A stretch of 6,162 nt of DNA from Streptococcaceae bacterium (GTDB taxonomy: Bacteria > Bacillota > Bacilli > Lactobacillales > Streptococcaceae): NCBI GenBank assembly GCA_902836505.1, contig CADFQU010000059.1:1-6162 (forward strand). The letters run 5' to 3'. The notes under the pieces were generated by a model, which saw only the letters and a list, made by a program, of their open reading frames with translations, was not told the origin of the DNA and made no database searches. This document shows, piece after piece, positions 1 through 6,162 of this stretch. The translations under genes and the position numbers were made by a program. Each line of letters opens with the position of its first letter. Positions within the stretch are counted from its first letter, which is position 1.

Positions 1-55
1 ATTACTTAGATAACGTTATTTCAGGTAACGAAAAGGTATTGGTAGCTCGTTTGGG
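1..55. other. Unassigned left-edge segment, not leuC
   Basis: These bases precede recognisable LeuC but do not encode it. The frame that continues into leuC has TAA stops at 11-13 and 26-28. The expected LeuC lead-in, around a CLGMN-type motif next to an iron-sulfur cysteine, is absent. Another plus frame is open (reading [16 protein letters not shown]) but I recognise no family in it. The stretch ends at a run of seven G (53-59) exactly where LeuC similarity begins. A mis-join or contig edge is the simplest explanation; a real rearrangement or deletion cannot be excluded. Confidence 0.5.
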
Positions 56-205
56 GGGGTCCACTGTGCCTCTACCAGCAATCGAAATTTTGAAGACCGC
101 CAAGGTTTTGGGGCCAAGACCCATCTCTGTAGTCCTGCTATGGCCGCTGCAGCAGCAATAGCCGGACGATTTGTCGATGTGCGTCAAATGCCTGAAGTTC
201 AATAA
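56..205 (+). CDS. leuC: 3-isopropylmalate dehydratase large subunit, C-terminal fragment
   Basis: LeuC is the [4Fe-4S]-binding large subunit of isopropylmalate isomerase. With LeuD it converts 2-isopropylmalate to 3-isopropylmalate in leucine biosynthesis in the cytoplasm. Only about the last 48 residues are readable here, starting [16 protein letters not shown]. They continue with [16 protein letters not shown] and end MPEVQ before TAA at 203-205. The first block carries a cysteine (codon 65-67) at the position of a conserved cluster ligand in the aconitase family. The small residues after SPAM are typical of the LeuC C-terminus. leuD begins 10 bases after the stop, so the two are co-transcribed. 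Upstream of the G run at 53-59 the LeuC reading is lost, so a start cannot be given. The product assignment is secure; whether the gene is intact outside the window is unknown. Confidence 0.9.
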
Positions 206-211
206 AGGAGG
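204..211 (+). promoter_or_regulatory. Ribosome binding site fixing the leuD start
   Basis: A strong Shine-Dalgarno sequence, AAAGGAGG, overlaps the leuC stop codon and lies 4 bases before ATG 216. It sets the leuD start there rather than at an in-frame ATG at 171, which lies inside leuC. It also supports coupled translation of the two isomerase subunits. Confidence 0.85.
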
Positions 212-215
212 AAGC

Positions 216-806
216 ATGGAGAAATTCACCATTTATACGGGGACAACCGTTCCCCTGATGAACGATAATATCGATACCGACCAAATCCTCCCCAAGCAAT
301 TCTTAAAGCTGATTGATAAAAAAGGCTTTGGCAAATACCTCATGTATGCTTGGCGCTATTTGGACGATCAGTACACCGAGGATCCAACATTTATCTTTAA
401 TAAGCCGGAATACCGTAAGGCAACCATTTTGATCACTGGTGACAATTTTGGGGCAGGTTCCTCGCGGGAACATGCAGCCTGGGCCTTGGCTGATTATGGC
501 TTTAAAGTCGTTATCGCTGGGTCTTTCGGAGATATCCATTATAATAATGAACTCAATAATGGGATGCTCCCGATTGTTCAACCGCTAGAGGTTCGTCAAA
601 AACTGGCCAGCTTGAATCCGACAGATGAGGTAACGGTGGATTTGGAAGAGCAGAAGATCATTTCGCCAGTTGGAGAATTCAGCTTTGAGATTGATGGGGA
701 TTGGAAGCACAAATTACTCAATGGTCTAGATGACATCGGGATTACTCTCCAATACGAGGACTTGATTGCTGCTTATGAGAAGAATCGGCCCGCCTATTGG
801 CAATAA
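216..806 (+). CDS. leuD: 3-isopropylmalate dehydratase small subunit
   Basis: This 196-residue protein is the small (swivel-domain) subunit of isopropylmalate isomerase. It pairs with LeuC to move the hydroxyl group of 2-isopropylmalate in leucine synthesis. It is complete and of normal length for bacterial LeuD. Family motifs appear in order: [12 protein letters not shown] at residues 18-29, the substrate-loop motif [13 protein letters not shown] at 75-87, and [18 protein letters not shown] at 103-120. The C-terminus is PAYWQ. The ATG at 216 is preferred because a strong ribosome binding site (204-211) sits just before it and because homologues begin MEKFT. It follows leuC by 10 bases and is probably the last gene of a leu operon, since the next gene has its own promoter. 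No clear intrinsic terminator follows it. Confidence 0.97.
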
Positions 807-825
807 AATTGTATAGTTAATTAAG

Positions 826-840
826 AATTTTCAGAAAATA
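826..840 (+). promoter_or_regulatory. CodY operator (near-consensus CodY box)
   Basis: AATTTTCAGAAAATA matches the established CodY box AATTTTCWGAAAATT at 14 of 15 positions, differing only in the last base. It ends 2 bases before the -35 hexamer at 843 of the promoter driving the YrdC/Sua5-family gene, and lies 20 bases after the leuD stop. CodY is the GTP- and branched-chain-amino-acid-sensing regulator of low-GC Gram-positives. Binding here would contact or block RNA polymerase just upstream of -35. Repression of the downstream gene in rich medium is the likeliest outcome, though activation from this position is possible. Confidence 0.75.
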
Positions 841-842
841 TA

Positions 843-871
843 TTGAAGCTTTTTGGGATTTTTGATAGAAT
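843..871 (+). promoter_or_regulatory. Sigma-A promoter of the YrdC/Sua5-family gene
   Basis: TTGAAG (843-848) is followed after exactly 17 bases by TAGAAT (866-871), a good vegetative promoter. Transcription would start near 878-880. That leaves a short leader of about 23 bases containing the ribosome binding site AGAGGA (888-893) before ATG 902. This indicates expression independent of the leu operon, although leuD has no obvious terminator and read-through may add to it. Confidence 0.75.
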
Positions 872-901
872 AGAAAAAAAGAATAGAAGAGGACGTAATT
901 T

Positions 902-1687
902 ATGACAAACCACATTCAATGGGACGGACAACTTTCACAAGAAGGATTTGAGATTTTGAAAGGTGAGGGTGGCTGTATCGTCTGCCCTACAAAAGTCGGC
1001 TACATCATCATGACCAGTGACAAGGCTGGCTTGGAACGGAAATTCGAAGCTAAAGAACGCAATCGTAACAAACCAGGTGTCGTTCTTTGTGGAAGCATGG
1101 ATGAACTTCGTGCCCTTGCACAATTGAATCCTGAAATCGAAGCCTTCTACCAAAAACATTGGGATGAAGATATCTTGCTTGGTTGTATCCTTCCTTGGCG
1201 TGAAGATGCCTATGCTAAGTTACAAGCCTTCGGCGATGGACGTGAAGAACTCATGACAGACGTTCGTGGAACCAGCTGTTTTGTCATCAAATTCGGTAAA
1301 GCTGGTGAGCAAATCGCCAAAGAAATGTGGGAAAAAGAAGGCAAGATGGTTTACGCCTCTTCAGCTAACCCATCCGGTAAAGGAAATCGTGGGAAGGTCC
1401 AAGGAATTGGTGAGCGAATCGAAGGTGCTGTGGATTTGGTCATCGAAGCCGACGATTATGTGGCTTCCATCCAACCAGACAAGACAATTGAAACGCGCTA
1501 TGAACAAGGAGTGATGGTTTCTATGGTGGATGCGGAAGGAAAACTCATCCCAGAACAAGGAGCAGGAAGTCGTTCTGTCAATACTTGTCCAGTCGTGATC
1601 CGTAAAGGATTAGATATCGATAAGATCATGATGCACTTGTCCGATCATTTCAACTCTTGGAACTACCGCCAAGGGGAGTACTATTAA
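902..1687 (+). CDS. YrdC/Sua5/YciO-family protein (threonylcarbamoyl-AMP synthase-like paralogue)
   Basis: This 261-residue cytoplasmic protein has a YrdC-like fold. The family's best-known reaction makes threonylcarbamoyl-AMP from threonine, bicarbonate and ATP for tRNA t6A37. Family landmarks are PTKVGY (29-34) in place of the usual PTET-YGL, a basic nucleotide-site segment KERNRNKPG (51-59), and SSANPSG (153-159). There is an atypical tail after about residue 200 (GAGSRSVNTCPVVIRKG at 220-236). The altered first motif and the lack of a tRNA-modification neighbour suggest a paralogue rather than the housekeeping t6A enzyme, so I give no symbol. It has its own promoter with a CodY-type operator. 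It is complete, closes with TAA and is followed 6 bases later by a strong terminator hairpin. Family membership is secure; the substrate is unknown. Confidence 0.85.
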   Translation: MTNHIQWDGQLSQEGFEILKGEGGCIVCPTKVGYIIMTSDKAGLERKFEAKERNRNKPGVVLCGSMDELRALAQLNPEIEAFYQKHWDEDILLGCILPWREDAYAKLQAFGDGREELMTDVRGTSCFVIKFGKAGEQIAKEMWEKEGKMVYASSANPSGKGNRGKVQGIGERIEGAVDLVIEADDYVASIQPDKTIETRYEQGVMVSMVDAEGKLIPEQGAGSRSVNTCPVVIRKGLDIDKIMMHLSDHFNSWNYRQGEYY

Positions 1688-1693
1688 AAGATA

Positions 1694-1741
1694 GAAAAAG
1701 GTCGTTACAGTTTGTAACGACCTTTTTCTTGTCTATTTTTT
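1694..1741. terminator. Bidirectional intrinsic terminator between convergent genes
   Basis: A perfect 15-bp stem (1694-1708 pairing with 1714-1728) with a 5-base loop is built around GGTCGTTAC/GTAACGACC and extended by A5/T5 tracts. Rightward it is followed by further T-rich sequence to 1741, ending the YrdC/Sua5-family transcript. Leftward the A5 tract becomes a U tract, so the same hairpin can end the minus-strand DUF421 operon, whose last stop is 1763-1765. Confidence 0.92.
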
Positions 1742-1762
1742 TCGAATAGCTGATTTCAAACC

Positions 1763-2395
1763 TTAATAAGTCACAACATTAAGCTCACCCTTATCATATT
1801 CAGCGATAAAGATGTCATCAACATTTTCAAATCCTTTTTTATTCAGCTCGGACATAAGCCATTCTTCAGTTTTACCTATGGTCTCTAAGATCTCTACTTG
1901 AACCACACCATCTGTAATGATTGGGTATTTGGGATTTTCATCTCCCATTCGCACAATAATGAGTTGGCCATTTTGCTCGATGACGGCTCTTTTGACTTCT
2001 TTCAGTTGGAAGACTCCTTGAGAGCGCAATTTAAGAGCGACATCAGAAGCAGAAAGGCCTTTTGAGCGACAGGCTTCTGGATCTAATTTTCCGTTTTTAA
2101 TGATAATGGTTGGTTTTCCATCAATCAGATGTTTGATGAAGGAAACATTTGTATTAAACCATTTGAGTGACAGGATCAAAATTGTCCAGATGATGAGGAT
2201 GATGACATATTGAAGAATGGGAATAGAACTATTGTAGATAACCCCACCAATAATACCCCCAAGCACAAAGTTCTGTATTTGGTCTACTGCAGAACTTGGT
2301 GCTAGATTTCCTTTACCTGTTACATTGATAACAAAAACAAGAGACAGAAGCCCCAAGGCCAATTTAATCGCAATTGTAGCAAAAAAGCTTATCAT
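1763..2395 (-). CDS. DUF421 (YetF-like) membrane protein
   Basis: This 210-residue protein has three predicted membrane segments near the N-terminus (about residues 5-25, 41-58 and 60-80). A soluble domain of the DUF421/YetF type follows: GKPTIIIKNGKLDPEA (93-108), then SASDVALKLRSQGV (115-128) and EVKRAVIEQNGQLIIV (133-148). The 'lR..G' and 'A.iE.nG.l' pattern is characteristic of the family, whose biochemical role is unsettled. The ATG at 2395 is chosen because GGAGG on the minus strand (2403-2407) lies 7 bases before it. The start overlaps the stop of the upstream DUF3290 gene by 4 bases (ATGA), indicating translational coupling and suggesting that the two products act together at the membrane. 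It shares the convergent terminator with the YrdC/Sua5-family gene. Confidence 0.85.
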   Translation of the reverse strand: MISFFATIAIKLALGLLSLVFVINVTGKGNLAPSSAVDQIQNFVLGGIIGGVIYNSSIPILQYVIILIIWTILILSLKWFNTNVSFIKHLIDGKPTIIIKNGKLDPEACRSKGLSASDVALKLRSQGVFQLKEVKRAVIEQNGQLIIVRMGDENPKYPIITDGVVQVEILETIGKTEEWLMSELNKKGFENVDDIFIAEYDKGELNVVTY

Positions 2396-2844
2396 TTTTC
2401 AACCTCCACGAGTTCAACGTCTGATTTATATAAGTCCATTCTTTCAAGTAAATAGCTATCTGGTTCCGTTCCACTGATGGCACGGTAGAATTGGTCACCA
2501 ACTTTAATGATAGCTCCATCGGTTGTAGCTGAAGTATTAACATAGACGTCTTTTTTATCAACACCCAATTCCTTTGAGACAACCTCGATAAAGTGCAAGG
2601 ACGTACGGAACTGATTGTCATTAGACTGCTTGTTTTGGAAGTTTGAAATACTAATCAATACAAAGGCTACTAAGATTAATACAGAAATGATAGATAATTC
2701 ACGGAACTTACTTCCGCGTTTATCCTTATAAGCCTTAAAGGCGAATAAAGCCGTTACTATGACTAAGAGAATGGACATAATAACGATGACCCAATTTTGC
2801 TGGCTAATTTGACTAAGTACATAGTCGTAAGAATAGAATTTCAT
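2392..2844 (-). CDS. DUF3290-family small membrane protein
   Basis: This 150-residue protein has two hydrophobic segments (about 17-38 and 49-68) separated by a basic loop (KAYKDKRGSKFRE, 38-50). A soluble C-terminal domain of about 80 residues includes VDKKDVYVNTSA and an acidic end, ELVEVEK. Length, topology and pairing with DUF421 fit the DUF3290 family, known mainly as the partner of DUF421 proteins in lactic acid bacteria; function unknown. An ATG at 2850 adds two residues. However, the ribosome binding site AAAGG (minus strand, 2851-2855) touches that ATG directly, while it lies 6 bases before the ATG at 2844, so 2844 is preferred. A sigma-A promoter sits just upstream. Confidence 0.8.
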   Translation of the reverse strand: MKFYSYDYVLSQISQQNWVIVIMSILLVIVTALFAFKAYKDKRGSKFRELSIISVLILVAFVLISISNFQNKQSNDNQFRTSLHFIEVVSKELGVDKKDVYVNTSATTDGAIIKVGDQFYRAISGTEPDSYLLERMDLYKSDVELVEVEK

Positions 2845-2875
2845 AAACATCCTTTACTTATTTTGTATTCAAGGT

Positions 2876-2904
2876 ATTATAAACTAATTTCTCCATATCT
2901 TCAA
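2876..2904 (-). promoter_or_regulatory. Sigma-A promoter of the DUF3290-DUF421 operon
   Basis: On the minus strand, TTGAAG (2904-2899) is followed after 17 bases by a consensus TATAAT (2881-2876). Transcription should start near 2869, giving a leader of about 25 bases. The bases upstream of -35 (about 2905-2925) are A/T tracts resembling an UP element, which suggests a fairly strong constitutive promoter. I see no operator. Confidence 0.8.
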
Positions 2905-2995
2905 TTAGAAAAAACGAATGAAAAAATCTTCATGAACATTTTTAAAGAAAAATTGCGTTTATAGGAGGAGTGCTTATAAAGTGATAAAAATCATA

Positions 2996-3025
2996 AAAAA
3001 ACTAGAGCTCTAGCTCTAGTTTTTT
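2996..3025 (-). terminator. Intrinsic terminator of plsY, containing its stop codon
   Basis: A 13-bp stem (2996-3008 pairing with 3013-3025) with loop TCTA has ACTAGAGC/GCTCTAGT as its core and A6/T6 outer pairs. On the minus strand it ends in a run of seven T, a classic terminator. The plsY stop TAG (3018-3016) lies inside the first arm, so ribosomes finishing plsY would overlap the forming hairpin. The stretch 2905-2995 between this hairpin and the DUF3290 promoter is AT-rich and holds no convincing gene. Confidence 0.9.
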
Positions 3026-3660
3026 GGTTTTTGATGAGTGATATTTTTCCCCCAGGAGATGATATTTTCATTCTTGTTCAGGATACGCTTGATATTGTCC
3101 TTGTGACGGATGATAATCAAGGTCGCCAGTGCGAGGACGATAATGGTAAAGATGATATCGTAGCTTGGGAGGATCCAACCAGTCAGAGGCAGGATCAGGA
3201 CTCCGATACTAGCCAGAATAGCGACCGTCACACTTGAAAAGGAAATCATACTGGTCAAATAGAGGCTGCTAAAGAAATAAATAGCTAAGATAACTAGAAA
3301 GATAGGGGAGAAGCCGATGAGGACGCCTGCACTGGTTGCTACTGCCTTGCCTCCTTTAAAGCCCGCAAAAATTGGGAAGGTGTGCCCAAGAACTGCTAGT
3401 AGACCAAAGACCATGGGAGAAATTCCAGTAATTCCAAAAATGGTCGGCAATAAAACAGCCAAGGTTCCCTTGAGGAAGTCAACCGCAAAGACGACCAGAC
3501 CTGCCTTCGTTCCTAAGATACGGAAGGTATTGGTGGTCCCTGTGTTTCCAGAACCGTGTTCCCGTAGATTGATGTTAAAGAAGGCTTTTCCTATCCACAA
3601 ACCAGAAGGGATAGAGCCTAATAGGTATGCTAATACGAGTAAAAGAATTGTTTTCATCAT
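3016..3660 (-). CDS. plsY: Acyl-phosphate:glycerol-3-phosphate acyltransferase
   Basis: PlsY is an integral membrane enzyme. It transfers the acyl group from acyl-phosphate (made by PlsX) to sn-glycerol-3-phosphate, the first membrane step of phospholipid synthesis in Gram-positives. The 214 residues are mostly hydrophobic with the family's conserved loops in order: GSIPSG (15-20) and [15 protein letters not shown] (33-47), DFLKG (61-65), the glycine-rich [19 protein letters not shown] (92-110), and [12 protein letters not shown] (182-193), the family's third motif. Length is normal. The start is ATG 3660 or the adjacent ATG 3657, which aligns with the pneumococcal start as I recall it. No ribosome binding site precedes either, and the -10 box lies only 6 bases upstream, so the mRNA is probably leaderless. 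It is divergent from parE and transcribed alone, ending in the hairpin at 2996-3025. Confidence 0.96.
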
Positions 3661-3666
3661 AGTCTC

Positions 3667-3694
3667 ATTATATCAAAAATGCTTTGAATGAAAA
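3667..3694 (-). promoter_or_regulatory. Extended -10 promoter of plsY
   Basis: On the minus strand a consensus TATAAT (3672-3667) is preceded by TGA, forming the TGnTATAAT extended -10 motif. A weak -35 candidate, TTTTCA (3694-3689), lies 16 bases upstream. The usual 6-8 base distance from -10 to transcription start falls on or next to the plsY ATG at 3660, leaving essentially no leader. Confidence 0.65.
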
Positions 3695-3782
3695 AGAAAA
3701 TTTCTAGCTGAAGTGTCACATCGGATAGTCGGTTTGAACCAATCGTACTTAAATAGCCTAGTTAAAGGAGAAGAAGAAAGAA

Positions 3783-3798
3783 AAATTTTGCAAAATTT
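3783..3798. repeat. Perfect 16-bp palindrome across the parE -35 region
   Basis: AAATTTTGCAAAATTT equals its own reverse complement and fully contains the parE -35 hexamer TTGCAA (3788-3793). A dimeric regulator bound here would block the promoter. It matches the CodY box at about 11 of 15 positions but lacks the central CWG, so it may be a weak CodY-like site, another operator, or an AT-rich coincidence. The rest of 3673-3782 holds no gene that I can support. Confidence 0.5.
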
Positions 3799-3816
3799 CC
3801 TAAAAAACTGTAATAT
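3788..3816 (+). promoter_or_regulatory. Sigma-A promoter of parE
   Basis: TTGCAA (3788-3793) and TAATAT (3811-3816) are separated by 17 bases. Transcription would begin near 3823, leaving a leader of about 22 bases with a strong ribosome binding site AGGAGG (3834-3839), 6 bases before the GTG start. Confidence 0.7.
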
Positions 3817-3845
3817 AGAAAAGATGAACAAACAGGAGGTTCCTT

Positions 3846-5795
3846 GTGTCTAAAAAGGAAATCAACATTAATAATTACAATGACGATGCCATTCAGGTAC
3901 TAGAAGGGTTGGATGCGGTCCGTAAACGTCCAGGGATGTATATTGGATCGACAGATGGAAATGGTCTCCACCATTTGGTCTGGGAAATTGTCGACAATGC
4001 GGTCGATGAAGCCCTATCTGGTTTTGGTTCTCAAATTGATGTTACCATCAACAAAGACGGGTCTCTATCTGTAGCAGACCAAGGTCGGGGGATGCCGACA
4101 GGAATGCATGCTATGGGCAAACCAACCGTTGAGGTCATCTTTACCGTCCTCCATGCTGGAGGAAAGTTTGGTCAAGGGGGCTATAAGACTTCTGGTGGTC
4201 TCCACGGGGTGGGATCTTCCGTCGTGAACGCCCTCTCTAGCTGGCTTGAGGTAGAGATTACCCGTGATGGAGCGGTCTACAAGCAACGCTTTGAAGATGG
4301 TGGGAAACCTGTCACCACTCTTGAAAAGATTGGTACGGCTCCTAAGTCGAAGACAGGAACTAAGGTTACCTTTATGCCGGATCCAACCATCTTTTCAACG
4401 ACGGATTTCAAGTTTAATACCATTGCTGAGCGGATCAAAGAATCAGCCTTCTTGCTCAAAGACGTAACGCTGACGCTGACAGATCTCCGTAAGGAAGAAG
4501 ACAACTATGTGGCCTTCCATTACGAAAATGGGGTTCAGGATTTCGTAGAGTAATTAAATGAAGAAAAGGAAACCGTGACGCCAGTGCTCTAGTTTAATGG
4601 AGAATCAGAAGGCTTCCAAGTAGAAGTTGCTCTCCAGTACAATGATGGTTACTCAGATAATATCTTGTCCTTCGTCAATAATGTCCGCACCAAAGATGGG
4701 GGAACCCACGAAACCGGTCTGAAGACAGCCATTACCAAGGCCATGAACGACTATGCGAGAAAGACAGGACTTCTCAAGGAAAAAGACAAAAATCTGGAAG
4801 GATCAGACTACCGGGAAGGTTTGTCTGCTGTTCTTTCAATCTTGGTCCCAGAAGCCCATTTGCAATTTGAAGGGCAAACCAAAGACAAATTAGGAAGTCC
4901 CTTGGCTCGTCCAGTCGTTGATAGCATTGTTTCTGATAAATTGACTTTCTCCCTCATGGAAAATGGAGAATTAGCTTCTAATCTCATTCGCAAGGCTATC
5001 AAGGCCCGAGATGCGCGTGAAGCAGCTCGAAAAGCGCGTGATGAGAGTCGAAATGGCAAGAAAAACAAAAAGGACAAGGGACTCTTATCTGGTAAATTGA
5101 CCCCAGCCCAGTCCAAGAATGCTGCCAAGAATGAACTCTATCTAGTCGAAGGAGACTCAGCCGGTGGATCGGCCAAGCAAGGTCGAGATCGCAAGTTCCA
5201 GGCTATCCTCCCACTTCGAGGGAAGGTTCTCAATACTGAGAAGGCCAACATGAGCGATATCCTCAAAAACGAGGAAATCAACACCATGATCTATACCATC
5301 GGTGCTGGAGTTGGGGCTGACTTTACGATTGAAGATGCCAACTATGACAAGATCATCATCATGACCGATGCGGACACGGATGGGGCACACATTCAGACCT
5401 TGCTCCTAACTTTCTTCTACCGCTATATGCGTCCTTTAGTTGAAGCAGGACGGGTCTATATTGCCATGCCTCCTCTTTACAAGATGTCTAAAGGCAAAGG
5501 GAAGAAAGAAGAAGTGGCTTATGCCTGGACAGACAGTGAATTAGAAGACCTACGCCGGACCTTTGGCCGTGGGGCAACCCTCCAACGTTACAAAGGGTTG
5601 GGGGAAATGAATGCGGACCAACTTTGGGAAACCACCATGAACCCAGAAACCCGCACCTTGATTCGTGTCACCATTGACGACTTGGCGCGTGCAGAACGTC
5701 GCGTCTCAGTCCTAATGGGCGATAAGGCGGCACCACGTCGCCAATGGATTGAAGACAATGTTAAGTTTACCTTGGAAGAAACGACAGCGTTTTAA
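3846..5795 (+). pseudogene. parE: DNA topoisomerase IV subunit B, interrupted by two in-frame stops
   Basis: ParE is the ATPase subunit of topoisomerase IV, which with ParC unlinks daughter chromosomes. Read through, the frame gives 649 residues, normal for streptococci. The GHKL ATPase comes first: EIVDNAVDEAL (47-57), DQGRGMP (78-84), GGLHGVGSSVVNAL (117-130). Then follow the QTK transducer loop (344-346), the TOPRIM motifs EGDSAGG (435-441), PLRGK (456-460) and TDADTDG (507-513), and YKGLGEM (582-588). Start is GTG 3846 behind AGGAGG; homologues begin MSKKEININN. Codon 236 is TAA (4551-4553) and codon 249 is TAG (4590-4592), each replacing a tyrosine expected from ParE/GyrB relatives; both flanks stay in one frame. 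The first stop leaves a 235-residue ATPase fragment. I see no ribosome binding site that would restart the rest. parE is normally essential, so sequence error, a strain mixture or a spare copy must be considered. Confidence 0.9.
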
Positions 5796-5807
5796 GGAGT
5801 GTGAGTG

Positions 5808-6162
5808 ATGGATAGTTCAGGACATTCGATTATATGGCTTTACTTAGGTTTTATTCTCTTAGTCTCATCGCCCTCAGCTATTTTTGCTTTCTTTATGAAT
5901 CATCGAAAAAAAAGATTACTAGGACTCTATGCACCGATCGTGTTTACTTTGTTCATGATCTTGATGCTTATTTTTAATTTAGAAGGCTCAGAATCCGCTG
6001 CTTTAGGGGCGACCTTTATCATGTTTTTATTTGGCTTTCCCTTGATAATAGGAGCCTTAGTCTACACACTGATTCGTTTGTGTTTCGTTTATAGGAAGAA
6101 TCTGCGGAAGGGATTTTTGATTTTCCTATCCTATATCTTAGGTCCCCAGGCGCCCGCGAGGG
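5808..6162 (+). CDS. Small multi-pass membrane protein, 3' end cut by the window
   Basis: An open frame begins at ATG 5808 with AAGGAG (5794-5799) 8 bases upstream, overlapping the parE stop. It lies 12 bases after parE and so is probably co-transcribed. At least 118 residues are visible and the frame is still open at the edge. Hydrophobic segments lie at about 8-30, 38-57, 65-88 and from 102 on, separated by basic loops (NHRKKR at 31-36, YRKNLRK at 95-101) that suggest cytoplasmic turns. I recognise no named family. In streptococci a short hypothetical gene or two often lies between parE and parC, and this fits that position (inference). The last 22 bases (6141-6162) are abruptly GC-rich and give GPQAPAR, unlike the preceding sequence, so the end may be an artefact. 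Confidence 0.7.
   Translation, partial: MDSSGHSIIWLYLGFILLVSSPSAIFAFFMNHRKKRLLGLYAPIVFTLFMILMLIFNLEGSESAALGATFIMFLFGFPLIIGALVYTLIRLCFVYRKNLRKGFLIFLSYILGPQAPAR

Follow-up and report, generated by a model that had tools for sequence, protein, structure and literature searches.

Genomic context of the interrupted parE gene

The window (the whole stretch of DNA analyzed here, 6,162 nucleotides) contains, in this order, the C-terminal part of leuC, leuD, a Sua5-like gene, a DUF421/YetF gene, a DUF3290 gene, plsY, parE, and the start of a small open reading frame (ORF) (Table 1). The first two genes are those which we take to be leuC and leuD. All complete genes of the window other than parE had open frames. 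The source of the DNA is a Streptococcus. The nearest genome (G001) exhibited the same gene order and 91.3% identity over positions 56 to 6145 (91 to 92%), and the best named relatives of the 376-amino-acid (aa) ORF that follows the second stop codon of parE were streptococci, headed by Streptococcus sp. bf_0095 with 98% protein identity (80 loci were retained, the lower ones from other Bacilli). A mobile or phage origin was rejected: megablast gave no match in 50,697 phage records, the sole plasmid match comprised 33 bases, and a scan of viral contigs yielded one distant relative (49%).

Table 1. Features of the window
Feature	Position	Strand	Basis or remark
Non-aligning sequence joined to the leuC C-terminus	1-55		Likely chimeric or junk contig end; two relatives covering leuC
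leuC, C-terminus	about 56-205		
leuD	216-806		Pfam: Aconitase_C only
Sua5-like gene	902-1687		
DUF421/YetF gene	1763-2395	minus	
DUF3290 gene	2392-2850	minus	
plsY	3016-3660	minus	
parE, DNA topoisomerase IV subunit B, frame broken twice	3846-5795	plus	Frame reading, profile and structure matches
Left open piece, 235 aa: GHKL ATPase domain (HATPase_c) and start of transducer	3846-4553	plus	Open frame, profile, structures
In-frame TAA, codon 236	4551-4553	plus	Tyr in 22 of 22 close relatives
Patch with six private substitutions (4553, 4565, 4575, 4583, 4586, 4592)	4553-4592	plus	All transversions versus the consensus of 22 relatives
In-frame TAG, codon 249	4590-4592	plus	Tyr in 22 of 22 close relatives
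Right open piece, 400 aa: transducer (DNA_gyraseB), Toprim, C-terminal domains	4593-5795	plus	Profile and structure matches
Start of small ORF	5805 on		Without Pfam match
GC-rich 17-base tail	6146-6162		Likely junk contig end; the three relatives shown diverge

Both ends of the contig depart from the relatives. The first 55 bases may represent a rearrangement, but judging from the alignments, a chimeric or junk end of the contig is more likely. Positions 1 to 70 were unmatched in five near genomes and positions 1 to 60 in phages, and an exact 34-base stretch was not found in viral contigs. By eye, the complement of positions 1 to 55 looks like the end of an open frame. Such departing ends suggest poor contig quality and thus a plausible setting for bad calls within the contig.

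Architecture of the parE frame

parE forms a single frame of 650 codons, from a GTG at position 3846 to a TAA at positions 5793 to 5795, with two internal stop codons. The gene could be aligned without gaps to the nearest relative, as well as to 10 others tried alongside, in agreement with the initial annotation, which had reported a TAA at codon 236, a TAG at codon 249, and no frameshift. When the two open pieces were searched separately, the left one matched positions 3 to 226 of the 637 positions of TIGR01058 (parE_Gpos; E value of 1.4e-114) and the right one positions 241 to 636 (E value of 1.3e-218), and the domains of the ParE family were present in the order ATPase, transducer, Toprim, and C-terminal domain. 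Neither piece alone (383.7 and 727.4 bits) reached the curated cutoff of 899.95 bits. Both matched solved topoisomerase IV B subunits, e.g., 4juo and 4i3h. The gene therefore resembles the Gram-positive topoisomerase IV subunit B described by TIGR01058 in that its two pieces cover nearly the whole profile and in that its gene order is that of the nearest genome, but the frame is not uninterrupted as in a ParE, and it differs further by two more private replacements, which lie together with the stops inside 40 bases. In a large protein collection, the right piece was closest to a full-length 649-aa protein representing 2632 sequences. Among the best 120 of 4446 relatives of the left piece that passed the limit, none terminated at the first stop, which is weak evidence, as these were cluster representatives.

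The residues replaced by stops were assessed in 100 relatives (19 loci from a genus search [L017 to L035], the 80 retained loci, and 1 viral contig, with some genomes repeated). Residue 236 was Tyr in 99 of them. At residue 249, Tyr occurred in 70 and was replaced by Ser in 21; in the Streptococcus subset, 37 of 43 had Tyr there. From these counts, the first Tyr appears to be almost invariant, and the second is the norm among streptococci. The Tyr motifs that the initial annotation had given for both sites thus held at residue 236 and only in part at residue 249. Both sites are Tyr in each of the 22 close relatives with gap-free alignments.

Private substitutions cluster around both stop codons

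Out of 26 close loci compared, 22 aligned gap-free to parE and were used, whereas 4 with a one-base gap were dropped. The gaps lie at parE base 1926 in L118, L125, and L136 and at base 1654 in L137; the one common to the first three, near the 3' end of parE, may stem from the alignment or from a C-terminus that differs. Relative to the 22 loci, parE of the window had 13 private positions, i.e., positions with a base seen in none of these relatives. Six of the 13 fell inside 40 of the 1950 bases, bounded by the two stop codons. Assuming uniform placement, a scan statistic assigned this cluster a P value of ∼3e-5 (2e-5 with third positions only), and clustering was likewise found against the 8 closest relatives alone, with 29 private positions (P = 4e-3, or 3e-3 with third positions only). 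Moreover, identity inside the patch fell to 77.5 to 85% for all ten relatives compared. As controls, 21 non-identical relatives were each left out and treated like the window: in their densest 40 bases, private changes numbered 3 at the most and private transversions 2, and a private stop was found in none of the 21. The window is an outlier on each of these measures, and its private changes are clustered beyond chance and beyond the relatives, as would be expected of a local error.

The patch also differed in the kind of change. All 6 private changes inside it were transversions, whereas all 7 outside it were transitions (22 relatives; Fisher P = 6e-4); against the 8 closest relatives, transversions accounted for 5 of 6 changes in the patch, but only 2 of 23 outside. 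In the part of the window in which at least 6 of 10 relatives aligned (from about position 2600 on), the patch again was the densest 40 bases, with 6 private changes compared to 4 in the next separate stretch. In the same part, however, 20 of 46 private changes were transversions, so that the excess is a contrast inside parE and not across the window. In plsY (3049 to 3432), unlike in parE outside the patch, 9 of 11 private changes were transversions, and 8 of the 11 were silent. Since transversions are common there, they are by themselves no mark of error.

With respect to the protein, 4 of the 6 changes in the patch were altering, compared to 1 of 7 outside, at codon 369. The former comprise the two stops and conservative replacements at codons 240 and 244, where the residue is identical in 22 of 22 relatives. 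These two codons, together with codon 369, carry private amino acid changes found in none of the 22 relatives, contrary to the statement that everything apart from the stops was preserved. The change at codon 369 (window position 4951) is a private Phe-to-Ser replacement at a site occupied by F, Y, I, W, or V in the 100 relatives; it could be another miscall or else a genuine variant. By codon position, 5 of the 6 patch changes were at third positions, for which a hand calculation gave a chance of ∼0.02 under random placement.

We also modeled how readily stops would arise. If each base in codons 236 to 249 of the nearest relative is equally likely to change, six substitutions produce at least two stops with a probability of ∼0.06; given a patch, the stops thus need no special cause. 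The initial annotation had reasoned from two independent nonsense hits. As the stops are 2 of six clustered private changes, they look instead like one local event, and on the basis of these alignments they are probably not independent, but parts of one patch.

Two candidate sources of the patch were rejected. A mosaic of two strains joined at the patch was not apparent: on either side of it, which of ten relatives matched best varied between segments, with differences of a few percent, and there was no clear change of partner at the patch itself. Templating from elsewhere in the window was not supported either, with no non-self match longer than 13 bases. We also looked for the same stop context in other parE genes by using a degenerate pattern of the first stop, which had matches in 22 of the 284 genomes searched within the genus; 20 of the 22 matches were away from the parE place, the G189 locus was without parE, and the other match was in G264.

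Origin of the stop codons

We consider it quite probable that both stops belong to a single 40-base patch of miscalled or misassembled bases and that the real parE is intact; the feature is most likely not biological. The patch would have arisen not in the cell, whose parE would encode an ordinary topoisomerase IV B subunit, but during sequencing or assembly, for instance, where coverage was low or read ends were of poor quality. This reading is favored because the stops sit among clustered changes that are private with respect to 22 relatives, and because the patch appears to ignore selection in an otherwise conserved gene. The open parE of ten near genomes (see below), the open frames of the other complete genes of the window, and the full-length relative of the right piece also speak for it. 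Consensus or base-calling error, the first option offered in the initial annotation, is hence the best supported, both by the cluster of private changes and by the leave-one-out control. False pseudogenes caused by local consensus or assembly errors are a recognized kind of artifact, and the present case shares with them clustered private substitutions, a gene otherwise under selection, and contig ends departing from relatives. Counting against an error are the absence of indels from the patch and the third-position bias, which along with the conservative replacements resembles coding drift. Furthermore, the comparison set comprised at most one genome per species, so that species-level variation is not separable from strain-level change and the patch may be a species-specific stretch.

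The main rival to a local error is a real clustered mutation, e.g., by an error-prone polymerase, that broke parE in a dying, rare, or mixed lineage. Substitutions only, confined to one 40-base stretch, are what a single event might leave, and the ∼0.06 chance of two or more stops among six random substitutions would demand no special cause here either. Nevertheless, we regard such a mutation as unlikely: topoisomerase IV, and with it parE, should be indispensable, and a broken allele present in few cells would not often dominate a contig consensus. Keyword passages of PMC12691585, PMC4440532, PMC12260033, and PMC5534458 contained no statement on the essentiality of parE in a streptococcus. 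If the patch were real, the window copy might also be an ordinary pseudogene beside a second, intact parE elsewhere, as the initial annotation had considered. The kin lend this no support. In each of the ten near genomes, exactly two genes encoded a B-subunit transducer domain; one occupied the parE place, and the other, located elsewhere, was taken as gyrB. Their B-subunit matches were free of stops, with open frames of 653 to 657 aa. In addition, the surrounding gene order is that of the nearest genome, and with 7 private changes outside the patch, one of them protein altering, the window parE appears to be without general decay. We therefore hold a second parE to be highly improbable.

Readings in which the stops are real and tolerated fare worse still. 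Suppressor tRNAs or other recoding could allow full-length ParE to be made, and the mostly third-position changes of the patch, silent or mild where they do not create stops, are what selection on a protein would leave. However, suppression would have to act on two different stops, and both codons serve as terminators nearby: TAA ends leuC, leuD, the Sua5-like gene, the DUF421 gene, and parE itself, and TAG ends plsY, with the same codons used in the relatives that span each gene (2 to 8 per gene). The latter also bears out the earlier view that a general reassignment of the code is unlikely. A search for suppressor tRNAs, which had been proposed as a check, was made in the nearest genome only and came out negative, in that no tRNA reading TAA or TAG was among the 42 of 44 tRNA matches that could be typed and tRNA-Tyr had only the GTA anticodon. 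We regard nonsense suppression as very unlikely. Alternatively, ParE might work as two halves, split near the border between ATPase and transducer domains. The first stop is at about the eighth transducer codon, as DNA_gyraseB starts near codons 228 to 229, and several PDB structures of relatives are ATPase-domain constructs that end at query residues 226 to 229, with, e.g., 4em7, 5yig, 4hz5, and 4urn ending at residues 227 to 228. On the other hand, the first in-frame ATG, GTG, or TTG past the second stop is the TTG at position 4665, 24 codons into the right piece, no ribosome-binding site was seen by eye at this codon, and parE was open in all ten near genomes, which makes a split ParE barely conceivable and the least probable reading of all. 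Taken together, a streptococcus that lives with a double-stop parE through lineage-specific double suppression or a split ParE, its patch evolving as coding sequence in which the stops serve as sense codons, would be a most improbable case.

Implications

If the patch is a local sequence error, as we think, it would have no biological consequence for the organism. The lesson would rather be that, when two stops lie close together in a housekeeping gene, one should first ask whether they share a patch of private changes and only then consider suppression or pseudogenes. Were the stops real and read through, they would represent an unusual instance of two nonsense codons being suppressed in one presumably essential gene.
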